A DNA stretch of 64,000 nt from Massilia frigida (lineage in GTDB: Bacteria; Pseudomonadota; Gammaproteobacteria; Burkholderiales; Burkholderiaceae_D). Each line of letters begins with the position of its first letter. Positions within the stretch are counted from its first letter, which is position 1. Below, in pieces: positions 46,177 to 50,110 of the stretch. The DNA lies in NCBI RefSeq assembly GCF_011682175.1, contig NZ_WHJG01000040.1, positions 1 to 64,000 on the forward strand, in the 5' to 3' direction. Under the pieces are notes generated by a model that made no database searches, was not told where the DNA came from, and saw only the letters and a program-made list of their open reading frames with translations. The translations under genes and the position numbers were made by a program.

Positions 46177-46368
46177 ATGGATGTTTCAGGAATCGCCTCA
46201 CTGTCAAGCAGCATGGCCGAGACAGGCATCAAGCAGGAAGTCGGCTACGCCGTCTTGAAAAAAGCGCAACAGATGCAAGGCCAGGTCGCCGCCCAGCTGA
46301 TCGACGCGCTGCCGACGCCCCAGCGTTTGCCATCGAATCTCGGCAATACCATCAATACGACCGCCTGA
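46177..46368 (+). CDS. YjfB-family putative motility protein
   Basis: A 63-residue protein. MDVSGIASLSSSMAETGIKQ followed by GYAVLKKAQQMQGQVAAQLI is the signature of the small YjfB family, annotated as putative motility proteins. GGGAGA precedes the start. A strong terminator follows. No other motility gene is adjacent; a FliT-like gene lies 9 kb away. Confidence 0.75.
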   Translation: MDVSGIASLSSSMAETGIKQEVGYAVLKKAQQMQGQVAAQLIDALPTPQRLPSNLGNTINTTA

Positions 46369-46416
46369 GTGCGCCCGTGCCCGCGAGGGCGCCAGCGCCT
46401 GGACCGGCCGTGCAGC

Positions 46417-46456
46417 ACCCGGTGACCTCCCGTCAAAGGAGGCGCCGGGTTTTTTT
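46417..46456 (+). terminator. intrinsic terminator after the YjfB-like gene
   Basis: ACCCGGTGACCTCC (46417-46430) pairs with GGAGGCGCCGGGT (46438-46450) with one interruption, followed by seven Ts. It separates the upstream genes from the bufferin cassette. Confidence 0.85.
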
Positions 46457-46487
46457 ACGTTAAAATTGCCGGCGTCACGGGGAAAGT

Positions 46488-46498
46488 TGTAAGGAACT
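46488..46498 (+). promoter_or_regulatory. possible ECF sigma -35-like element upstream of bufA
   Basis: TGTAAGGAACT contains GGAACT, the usual ECF sigma -35 core, about 95 bases before the start codon. A matching -10 is not clear. Related DUF2282 operons elsewhere are under ECF sigma control, but no sigma gene is in the window. Confidence 0.3.
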
Positions 46499-46592
46499 GA
46501 AAAGCGCGCCGGGTAATCGGGCGGCTGGGCTTTACAATCGCCTCCGACCTGGCAATTCCTGGTTCACTTCATCATTTCCAAGGAGATTTACG

Positions 46593-46856
46593 ATGAACAA
46601 ACGTCAAGCCCTGATCGCCGCCGCTCTCGCCGGCGTGTACGCGGTATCGAACGGCGCGGCCGCGCACGATCCGGTCGACAAGGCTGAGAAAGAGAAGTGC
46701 TACGGCATCGCCAAGGCCGGCCAGAACGATTGCGCCAGCGCCAACGGTTCGCATTCCTGCTCGGGCCAGGCCAGTGTCGACAAAGCCCCGGAAGAGTGGA
46801 AATACGTGGCCAAAGGCACTTGCGAAAAAGCCGGCGGCAAGCTTTCCGGCAAGTAA
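46593..46856 (+). CDS. bufA1: bufferin-type metallophore precursor, DUF2282 (BufA1 family)
   Basis: An 87-residue exported precursor with signal peptide ([21 protein letters not shown]). The mature peptide has four cysteines at 36, 47, 56 and 77 in [21 protein letters not shown] and [10 protein letters not shown], the DUF2282 pattern. Characterised bufferins are ribosomally made peptides whose cysteines are converted by an MNIO enzyme to sulfur heterocycles that bind copper in the periplasm. AAGGAG precedes the ATG by seven bases. The maturase gene starts three bases after the stop, so the two are coupled. Confidence 0.9.
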
Positions 46857-46859
46857 GTC

Positions 46860-48524
46860 GTGACCGGCGGGGACTTACCGGCCGGTCTTCCATCCGGTCC
46901 CGCCGCGCCGGGCACCGGCGTCGGCTTGCGCGCCCCGCATTACCGTCAGTTTCTCGAACAGCGTCCGGCGGTCGGCTGGCTGGAGGTGCATACCGAAAAC
47001 TTTCTCGACCGCGCGGGCTGGGACTGGCATGTGCTGCGCGAACTGCGCCGCGATTATCCCATCAGCCTGCATGGCGTGGGCCTGGGACTGGGCTCGGCGC
47101 GCGGCTTTTCAGCTTCCCATCTTGAACGCGTCTGTGCCCTGGTCGAGCGGGTCGAGCCCATGCTCGTGTCCGAGCACCTGTGCTGGGGCGCCGTGGCCGA
47201 CCGCCAGCTCAACGACCTGCTGCCGATGCCGCTCACCCAGGCCGCGCTCGACCTGCTGTGCCAGCGTGTCGAGCAAGTGCAGGATCGCCTGCATCGGCGT
47301 ATTTTGCTGGAAAATGTCTCCACTTACGTGCGTTTTAACGACGATGCGATGAGCGAGGCCGAGTTCATGGCCGAGCTGGCCAGCCGTACAGGCTGCGCGC
47401 TGCTGCTCGATGTGAATAATCTCTACGTCAACCAGTGCAACCACGGCGAAGACGCGCTCGCGGCGATCGCTGCCATCGCGCCCGGCAGCGTGGGCGAAAT
47501 CCACCTGGCCGGCCACCTGGTGACACCGCAGGCCGTGATCGACCACCATGGCGACGTGGTGGCCGAGCCGGTCTGGGCGCTGTACCAGGCGGCGCTGGCG
47601 CGCTTCGGACGCTTGCCGACCCTGGTCGAATGGGATACCGACGTGCCCGCGCTCGAGGTGCTGCTGGGCGAGGCGCGCCGCGCGCAGGACATCGCCAGCG
47701 CTTATCCGCTGCCGCACGCCGCCAACCCCTGGCGCGGCCGGCACGCCCGCCCGCTGGCCTCGGACGCCCTGGCTGGCACCCAGCAGCGCTTCGCGGCGGC
47801 CCTGTTCGAGCGCGCCGAAGAGGGCGCCGCGCTGGCGCAGTTCAAGGGCGAGGCCAATCAGCACCGCTTCGGCCTGTATCGCGGCAACCTGACCGTGACC
47901 TGGAACAAAACCCTGGCGGCGGCCTGTCCGGTGCTGCGCCAGCTGGTCGGCGAGGAATTTTTCGGCGGACTCACGCGCGCGTACGGCATGGCCCAGCCCT
48001 CGCTCGACGCCGACCTGAACCGCTTCGGCGCCGGATTCGCCCGCTTCCTGGACGGTTTTCCCCACATCGCCGATTATCCTTACCTGCCCGACATGGCGCG
48101 CCTCGAATGGGCCGTGCACCGCGCCCATTACGCGCCCGACGCCGACCCCATCGGCGCCGCCGCCCTGGCGACCCTGAGCCCCGAAGCCTTCGAGGATGCG
48201 CGTTACACGCTCCATCCGGCTTGCAGCCTGATCGCGTCAAGCTGGGCGGTGGTGCCGCTGTGGCAGGCGCACCAGCCGGACAGCGGCGTCGATTTTCCTT
48301 CAGCCATGAATTACCCCAGCGCAGCCCTGGTGGCACGCCCGCGCTGGAAGACCGAACTGGTGGCGCTGACCCCGGCGCACGCTGGCGCGCTCGCCGCGCT
48401 GGCGGGCGGCTATACAATGGGTGAGGCGCTCGACGCCGCCTTCGCCCTCGATGAGCAGTTCGACATCGGGGCGCATCTGGCGCAGTGGGTCGCGCTGGGC
48501 ATCCTGCTGGCGCCGCCGGGCTAA
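46860..48524 (+). CDS. fused bufferin maturase: MNIO (DUF692, BufB) plus DUF2063 (BufC)
   Basis: A 554-residue protein joining two normally separate genes. Residues about 18-285 are the MNIO TIM barrel, with likely iron ligands in HGVGLGLGS (H71), SEHLCW (H106), LLENVSTYV (E151), LLDVNNLYV (D184), NHG (H195), EIHLAGH (H215), DHHGD (D228, H230) and VEWDTD (E257). After a linker (286-300), residues about 301-554 match DUF2063/BufC, including [22 protein letters not shown] and [16 protein letters not shown]. The reading frame is continuous, with no stop or internal ribosome site. It would oxidise cysteines of the BufA1-like peptide. No BufD/DoxX gene is adjacent. Confidence 0.9.
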
Positions 48525-48636: not shown

Positions 48637-49158
48637 ATGTCCATGAGCGCTGATCAAGCAATCGACGAATACCTGAGCAATGGCAATACCGTGACTACCG
48701 CGGTGGGGACCGTGCTGCTCTCCCCGGAAGCGCGGCGCGCGATCTACAAGCGCCTGGTCGATGAACCGGCGGCGCCGTTCCACGTCTTGCTGACCCAGAT
48801 GCTGGCGGAAGAAGTGAAGTTCCGCACCTGGATATCCGAAGAAATCGTGCAGGACGACATGAATTACTACGAAGGCATCTACCAGTGCGCCTTCCTGCTC
48901 TACCGTGTGGGCGATGCGCGCGATACCCTGGCCTTATGGGAAGCCAAGTACATCAATATGGATGTGGGAAGTTCCATGGGCGCCGAGTATTTTGTCGGTG
49001 CCGGGCTGGACCAGACCCTGGCGTTCCTGGCAAGCTCGCCGGTACCGCAAGCGGCCGAGATTGCGGCCTATCTTCACGGCTGGTTCGACCAGCCGGGCGC
49101 CATCACCTGGCAAGAAGCGTGGGAGCGGGAACGCGCCTCGAATATTGCCTGCGCCTGA
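48637..49158 (+). CDS. hypothetical protein
   Basis: A 173-residue soluble, mostly helical protein with no recognised domain. YYEGIYQCAFLLYRVGDARDTLALWEAKYINMDVGSSMGAEYFVGAGLDQTLAFL resembles small helical immunity-type proteins by composition only. The ATG at 48643 is an alternative start. It lies seven bases before the LRR/NTF2 gene, so they are probably co-transcribed. Confidence 0.55.
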   Translation: MSMSADQAIDEYLSNGNTVTTAVGTVLLSPEARRAIYKRLVDEPAAPFHVLLTQMLAEEVKFRTWISEEIVQDDMNYYEGIYQCAFLLYRVGDARDTLALWEAKYINMDVGSSMGAEYFVGAGLDQTLAFLASSPVPQAAEIAAYLHGWFDQPGAITWQEAWERERASNIACA

Positions 49159-49165
49159 GCCGGGC

Positions 49166-50110
49166 ATGCTGGACGTCCCCGCGCGCCCGCGTTTTCTTGA
49201 CTTCAAGGAGCGCTCCTTCAGCGCCGAGGATATTGCCTTTCTGCTCAGCAAGCCCTCGATTCGCGGCCTGACCTTCACCGGCTGCGCGATCGGCGACGAC
49301 GCCGTGCAAGCCCTGTGCGCGCTGCCCAAGCTGGAACGCCTGTGGCTAGCCGCCAGCGCCGTGACCGACGCCGTGCTGCCCGCGATCGCCCGCATTCCCG
49401 CCCTGAACTGGCTGGTCCTCGACCATACCGGCATCACCGGCACGGGCTTGGCGGCGTTTGCCGGGCATGCCAAATTGCGCCACCTGTCGCTGCGCTGCAC
49501 CAAGGCCGACGACGCCTGCGTGCGCCACATTGCCGCCATCCCGCGCCTGTCCCACGTGGACCTGCAGGGCAGTGCGCTCACGCCCGATGGCATGCTTGCG
49601 CTGGCAATCCATCCAACCGTGCGGCCCGGCATCGGCAAGGCGTTCGGGCCGGACCTGGCCGACGCTTTCCTGCGCGAACAGCGCCGCCTCGCCAGCCGCA
49701 CCCCGCCCGGTTTCGTGCCGGCGGCCGGCGAAGCGCAGGCGCTGCTGGACGTGCTGCAAGGCTTCTGGGAGGCGATCAGCGCCTGGGAAACCCAGCTCGC
49801 GCTCGATCTCAAGGAAACGCCGGACACGGAGGAGTGGCGCCAGCCGGCCTGCGCCGCCATCTTCGATCGTTTCTGCACGCCAAAGGAGCGCACATTCGGC
49901 CGTCCGCACGCGCTCAGCTTCAGCAGCCCGCCCGAATACCAGCGGCACACCTTGCTCGACGTGGAATGGCTGTCGGCACGCAAGGCGTGCGTGTACACCA
50001 GGGACCATTGCGGTAAGCAAAGCCGCTTCCTGTTATTGAAAAAGGGCAGCGCCTGGCGGCTCGATCACAAGCAACAGTTGTTCGACGGGTGGACCACGGC
50101 GTATTTGTAG
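49166..50110 (+). CDS. leucine-rich-repeat plus NTF2-like immunity-type protein
   Basis: A 314-residue protein. Residues about 15-150 show four to five LRR-like units (for example LPKLERLWLAASAVTDAVLP and LRHLSLRCTKADDACV). The C-terminal half (about 185-314) resembles NTF2-fold immunity proteins of polymorphic toxin systems: FWEAISAWE, AIFDRFCTPKERT, FSSPPEYQRH, and RFLLLKKGSAWRLDHKQQLF. No toxin gene is adjacent. The joining of LRR and NTF2 parts is unusual. The ATG at 49166 follows the preceding stop by seven bases. Confidence 0.55.
   Translation: MLDVPARPRFLDFKERSFSAEDIAFLLSKPSIRGLTFTGCAIGDDAVQALCALPKLERLWLAASAVTDAVLPAIARIPALNWLVLDHTGITGTGLAAFAGHAKLRHLSLRCTKADDACVRHIAAIPRLSHVDLQGSALTPDGMLALAIHPTVRPGIGKAFGPDLADAFLREQRRLASRTPPGFVPAAGEAQALLDVLQGFWEAISAWETQLALDLKETPDTEEWRQPACAAIFDRFCTPKERTFGRPHALSFSSPPEYQRHTLLDVEWLSARKACVYTRDHCGKQSRFLLLKKGSAWRLDHKQQLFDGWTTAYL

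Follow-up and report, generated by a model that had tools for sequence, protein, structure and literature searches.

A two-gene bufferin-1 cassette with a predicted single-chain MNIO-partner maturase in Massilia frigida

Introduction

MNIO enzymes are mostly active only with a partner protein, and the reason for this need is still being worked out. The bufferin-1 systems Caulobacter BufABC, the Cupriavidus gig operon and the four-gene set of a Burkholderia glumae plasmid share a DUF2282 precursor, a BufB-type MNIO and a DUF2063 partner (PMC12452194). The same set was found in a 64,000-nucleotide stretch of Massilia frigida DNA (the window), but while BufB and BufC are encoded by separate genes in those systems, they form one chain in the window. 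The locus raises the question of whether this fusion is genuine, how it arose and what it may contribute to the maturation of the precursor.

In the available text of PMC12452194, the partners are the products of separate genes, and the fusions listed are precursor fusions, not MNIO-partner fusions. A Pfam count of 2009 recorded DUF692 ahead of DUF2063 in one protein among 216 (PMC2954202). This was the sole mention of the architecture found, and no functional account of a natural MNIO-DUF2063 fusion or cassette was returned by a full-text search of article bodies.

Results

The features of the cassette are listed in Table 1. As initially annotated, the maturase gene starts three nucleotides past the precursor stop, and the precursor is a four-cysteine DUF2282 protein. 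It reached 84.9 bits with PF10048 (cut-off 22.4) in the Pfam profile scan and carries the four conserved cysteines of Buf1 clusters, while its score with the NCBIfam BufA2 model, 30.6 bits, was below the cut-off of 60 and did not indicate a BufA2 (Buf2) bufferin. In Buf1, the first and last cysteines form a disulfide, and modification takes place on those in the centre (PMC12452194, Fig. 3 legend). Modification would thus be expected on Cys47 and Cys56 only, and not on all four cysteines as had been proposed, Cys36 and Cys77 being unexpected targets. Five cysteines were counted in 77 of the 80 precursors of L111-L190; by eye, the extra one mostly belongs to the signal peptide, in TVCAA or a related sequence, at a position where the window has a tyrosine.

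Table 1. Coordinates of the cassette features in the window
Feature	Position	Strand	Details
ECF-type promoter motif remnant (putative function)	46488..46516	+	TGTAAGG (46488-46494), 16 nt, GGGTAA (46511-46516)
bufA-type precursor, DUF2282/Buf1, 87 aa	46593..46856	+	ATG 46593, stop ends 46856; Cys36/47/56/77
N-terminal signal peptide, about residues 1-24, likely leader	46593..46664	+	by eye; residues 1-16 strongly conserved
bufBC, single-chain MNIO + PME-type 1 partner, 554 aa	46860..48524	+	GTG start; internal stop absent
MNIO (BufB) TIM-barrel domain, residues 19-279	46914..47696	+	PF05114 (MbnB_TglH_ChrH) 335 bits, cut-off 25
Interdomain linker, residues 280-301	47697..47762	+	variable length and sequence
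DUF2063 domain, residues 307-397	47778..48050	+	PF09836 63.5 bits, cut-off 27.2
RRE-like C-terminal module, about residues 445-554	48192..48521	+	fold search, C-half model

Ahead of the cassette, 46177-46368 encodes a small motility protein of the YjfB type (PF14070, 54 bits); in L125, L184 and L189, what seems by eye to be the end of the same gene lies 5' of the precursor. A downstream frame at 48905-50110 encodes an NTF2-fold immunity domain (PF15655, 71 bits) with a weak LRR match; it is overlapped in another reading frame by the frame 48637-49158 (173 aa), which is without a Pfam match.

Separate BufB and BufC proteins are usual, though not defining, for Buf1 clusters; here both Pfam cut-offs were passed in one open frame, which agrees with the earlier claim of a complete MNIO and a complete partner. 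The MNIO half is of the BufB type, as it scored 360 bits with the NCBIfam bufferin-maturase (BufB) model NF050167 (cut-off 310). The NCBIfam models for BufA2, HvfB, ApyH, MbnB, ChrH and HvfC all remained below their cut-offs here, and the 41.4 bits of the MbnB model TIGR04159 (cut-off 325) did not indicate a methanobactin MbnBC. In HvfB, loss of N175, D242 or H244 abolishes activity (PMC13419390). These residues appear to match N187 (or N186), D228 and H230 of the window protein, as read by eye via an alignment with 3bww, and the latter did not vary among 18 fused proteins, four of which are distant. The MNIO motifs are retained, as annotated.

In a fold search with the whole model, almost only the MNIO half was matched, and TglI appeared once among the 50 rows listed; a separate model of the C-terminal half was therefore made, and its search returned TglI matches. 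The MNIO half shares its fold with the MbnBC and TglHI heterodimers, and the C-terminal half matches TglI. The region initially annotated as one DUF2063/BufC-like domain (about 301-554) is indeed the partner, but it consists of two modules, DUF2063 and an RRE-like fold, the combination of a PME-type 1 partner. NGO1945 (PDB 3dee) is also a PME-type 1 protein, but it stands alone, whereas the partner in the window is fused behind the MNIO. The fold and family matches of both halves support the reading of a single-chain bufferin maturase. We consider it quite probable that the locus is a two-gene bufferin-1 cassette, whose predicted single-chain maturase would form thiooxazoles on Cys47 and Cys56.

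Of the 17 genus genomes, 16 had a frame of at least 553 aa through the MNIO match; the remaining genome, G013, is 48% complete and has stops in two of its matches. An intact fused frame was also found in all 80 named loci kept, which were the best 80 of 305 relatives, a sample biased towards fusions. They belong to Massilia, Duganella, Rugamonas, Janthinobacterium, Pseudoduganella, one Herbaspirillum and metagenome bins, and the closest named relatives among them were Massilia rubra (88%) and M. aquatica (87%). This recurrence in the genus genomes and the named loci rules out a sequencing or assembly error as the source of the fusion, with a negligible probability left for it; a sequencing error had been named in the initial annotation as a possible refutation. 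One fused cassette (L160), with a lipoprotein-like precursor N-terminus, comes from a bin labelled Bifidobacterium breve, which is probably mis-binned.

In the family sample, about 148 of 392 genomes (counted by eye; 6 of those rows were flagged for a stop inside) had, among the matches listed, one match that spanned over 500 residues of the query. Among 24 further genomes of this set with a short best match, both halves were in one frame in 15, with shortened frames in G131 and G025 and a distant fusion in G058; separate genes were found in 8 (L201, L202, L206 and L208-L212), and the remaining one was G021. The class search matched 222 of 369 genomes, and the 29 class loci examined comprised 4 fused loci, 24 with separate genes and 1 without a partner match. 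Plasmid records gave 352 matches, all below 60% identity. The best 40 of these rows were B. glumae with two separate genes, and in 50 spread rows the matches reaching the second half were in at least two pieces, with annotation often missing. The proposed search for DUF692-DUF2063 architectures in relatives showed that the fusion is common in the family with the precursor upstream, and that separate fusions occur elsewhere in the class; the fusion stands, but not its peculiarity to this locus. The precursor lies directly 5' of the maturase in 30 of 30 family loci and directly 5' of the fused frame in all 80 kept named loci, where 0-79 nt separate its stop from the first in-frame maturase start codon.

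The M. frigida genome contains one DUF2282 gene and two MNIO genes, and one DUF2063 match was obtained at E 1e-3. The single DUF2282 gene and the single DUF2063 match favour the bufferin-1 reading of the cassette. The single-chain enzyme could instead serve mainly another protein or metal, the DUF2282 peptide being one among several substrates, and bufferin-like peptides are indeed tied to other metals through MerC fusions and gold-induced genes (PMC12452194). However, this seems improbable given the lone DUF2282 gene and the DUF2282-type precursor that adjoins the maturase in every one of the 80 loci.

The second MNIO of the genome (L258:4624-6045:-, contig C199, 474 aa) is fusion-like too, with a PF05114 match of 127 bits followed by a DUF2063-like part of 18.1 bits, below the cut-off of 27.2. 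An 86-codon frame just 5' of it is without an obvious signal peptide; it occurs in six relatives at 51-59% identity, all of them with a CPAC motif where M. frigida has CPAW.

Compared with six close loci (five distinct relatives, since the L036 and L113 sequences are identical), dN/dS was 0.07-0.11 in the MNIO half, 0.11-0.26 in the PME1 half and 0.17-0.93 in the linker. The respective values against two more distant loci were 0.14-0.15, 0.32-0.47 and 0.73-0.79. Purifying selection acts on both halves, and far less on the linker. From the column of residue 279 to that of residue 307, the linker span ranged from 14 to 58 residues in 52 sequences, with a mean identity of 23% to the window sequence, and block 291-300 of the predicted structure had a lower mean pLDDT of 55. 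The linker looks like a tether.

In all eight unfused sisters, a possible bufC start lies 4-19 nt before the end of the bufB stop codon in another frame, and the annotated bufB and bufC genes of B. glumae overlap by 17 nt (L260). Because the genes overlap in different frames, one indel there could fuse them. The fusion may then be neutral, an indel having joined genes that already cooperated without any gain in activity; the variable and weakly constrained linker and the existence of unfused relatives with both genes also fit this explanation. However, several genera have retained the fusion under constraint on its two halves, and a single origin for all fusions examined was rejected on the MNIO domain tree (AU p 1.3e-48), so that fusion seems to be recurrent. 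We give the neutral explanation somewhat less than an even chance.

The careful tree contained 46 MNIO domains, hand-chosen from 89 rows of a quick tree, and its bootstrap was not settled; on it, six changes are required to explain the fused state, and at least three of these fall on supported branches. Placing the Oxalobacteraceae fusions and L199 in one clade was also rejected (AU p 0.0015), whereas one clade of the 19 Oxalobacteraceae fusions, a group defined after tree inspection, was not (AU p 0.25). The unfused L201 and L202 are placed next to or within the Oxalobacteraceae fusions, so that either a single fusion followed by splits or several fusions may have occurred in this family. Across the whole set, the domain phylogeny suggests that the fusion apparently arose more than once.

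Outside the main clade, fusions with identical domain order were found in L090, L095 and L105 (one genus), L104 and L199, and both Pfam cut-offs were passed in L090, L104, L105 and L199. The precursor ahead of the L104 fusion has a signal-like start and six cysteines, four of them followed by lysine; it is Buf2-like by eye and was unmatched by any Pfam model in the Pfam scan. This arrangement suggests that the fusion may extend beyond Buf1.

The N-terminus of the window precursor is typical of the Sec type by eye (KR, a hydrophobic stretch, AAA) and is conserved. In 77 of 81 precursors (L119, L160, L180 and L186, with an unusual start, were left out of the conservation, codon, motif and identity counts), mean pairwise identity was 85% for residues 1-16, 30% for the spacer to the core and 68% from the Cys core to the end. 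Synonymous and nonsynonymous differences amounted to 29 and 16% in the leader codons, 17 and 66% in the spacer codons and 26 and 23% in the Cys-core codons, respectively. As a control, TolB signal peptides from the same family were 24% identical (31% in the last 16 residues) and mature TolB 70%; the control comprised 30 loci from the 96 genomes in which TolB was matched, and it covers more genera than the precursors. Signal-peptide conservation far above that of TolB, as a leader would be expected to show, indicates amino-acid selection beyond export within the maturase clade. Residues 1-16 of 15 unfused precursors across the class were only 30% identical, so the leader is conserved in the maturase clade and not in all Buf1 precursors. 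The leader type tracks this clade: it is shared by the unfused L201 and L202, so that it is not restricted to fused cassettes, and other types occur in L206-L212 and L199. According to preliminary results of Antoine and co-workers, the recognition sequence includes the signal peptide (PMC12452194).

The pattern TGTAAnn-N13-17-CGAC, usually as TGTAAGG-N16, was found in 34 of 77 upstream regions, compared with a mean of 0.135 and a maximum of 2 in 200 Markov resamples. It lies 53-87 nt 5' of the precursor start in 33 of the 34, and at 214 in L162. Its layout is like that of the Caulobacter sigma-F promoter, GTAACC-N16-CGAA (PMC3511200). The upstream region of the window kept the first block and the spacing and did not match the full pattern; at the position of 46511-46516, relatives carry CGAC, usually plus TA. 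Exact TGTAAGG-N16-CGACTA was absent from all four whole genomes searched, M. frigida included. A scan of 46360-46620 for sigma-70-like sites and terminators found none, and together with the degenerate motif this makes the expression of the cassette uncertain. Of 18 other loci scanned, 7 had the motif (unfused L202, L206, L208, L209, L212 and L087, and fused L199); it was missing in unfused L201, L210 and L211 and in fused L090, L095, L104 and L105. An NrsF-type regulator as sigma partner was unsupported, as NrsF occurs in 7 of 17 genus genomes and the M. frigida copy is on another contig. In L259 (from 2192, M. frigida contig C178), an ECF sigma factor adjoins an NrsF-type anti-sigma factor, away from the cassette.

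In the B. glumae plasmid set doxX follows, whereas a search of the 64 kb of the window with the B. glumae DoxX gave no match at E 1e-3, as expected from the annotated lack of an adjacent DoxX gene. This absence is not a property of the fusion, since 34 of the 80 fused loci carry doxX directly 3' of the maturase gene. Among these 80, 33 had both motif and doxX, 44 had neither, 2 had the motif alone (L119 and L183) and 1 had doxX alone (L181, where a near motif is present); the association was strong when relatedness was ignored (Fisher p 6e-19). In the eight unfused sisters, doxX was found within 1.5 kb flanks in L202, L206, L208, L209 and L212, the five with the motif. The tree-aware test had 6 pairs on supported branches, of which a mean of 4.6 went the same way and 0 the opposite way, with a median p of 0.0625, not below 0.05. 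We infer from these patterns that the ancestor had motif and doxX, which were probably lost jointly several times.

The window and L111-L113 all keep the first block, have a degenerate second block and are without doxX. These features would fit a decaying cassette, in which the promoter has eroded, doxX has been lost and the maturase has fallen out of use. Against those same relatives, however, dN/dS was low in both halves, and the four cysteines and the MNIO motifs are retained without a frameshift, so that decay is an unlikely explanation.

Discussion

The preferred reading suggests the following course of events. The C-terminal PME-type 1 half, with its DUF2063 domain and RRE-like fold, would capture the precursor in the cytoplasm via the signal peptide, which would act as the leader. 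The tethered MNIO half would then oxidize Cys47 and Cys56 to thiooxazoles using an iron cluster and O2. The modified peptide would be exported by Sec and cleaved, after which the outer cysteines could pair as a disulfide, and the mature peptide may bind excess copper in the periplasm. The fusion would secure contact between the enzyme and its partner.

A fixed 1:1 enzyme-partner ratio, as initially claimed, follows from the fusion itself. The accompanying term "substrate chaperone" is right about a tethered partner but too narrow, since the partner of the oxazolin system is also required for the active mixed-valent diiron state (PMC13419390). In this system, a 2026 preprint reported that HvfB and HvfC bind weakly as separate chains, and that an engineered fusion of HvfB followed by HvfC, HvfBCfusion, was more active than the co-expressed pair, an observation on oxazolin and not on Buf1 (PMC13419390). 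HvfBCfusion and the window protein share the order of MNIO then partner in one chain, but the former is laboratory-made, linker-free and acts on another precursor family, while the latter is natural and has a linker of about 22 residues (PMC13419390). By analogy, the natural fusion resembles an evolved counterpart of the HvfBC construct. MovX and ChrH, named as exceptions in PMC13419390, are also MNIOs with an extra in-chain domain, but theirs is an RRE or a domain of unknown function rather than a whole DUF2063-RRE partner (PMC13419390).

A wider proposal is conceivable, if doubtful: a recurrent and selected fusion, in at least three lineages, might hold the mixed-valent iron site and force signal-peptide capture before Sec, while the cassettes of the family would alternate between a form with ECF-sigma promoter and doxX and a form without both. 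The sister lineages with separate genes are matched natural controls, and the link between promoter and doxX bears on the role of DoxX. The conserved signal peptide bears on how export waits for modification. As a natural 1:1 single chain, the maturase is a ready object for structure determination, iron spectroscopy and peptide engineering.
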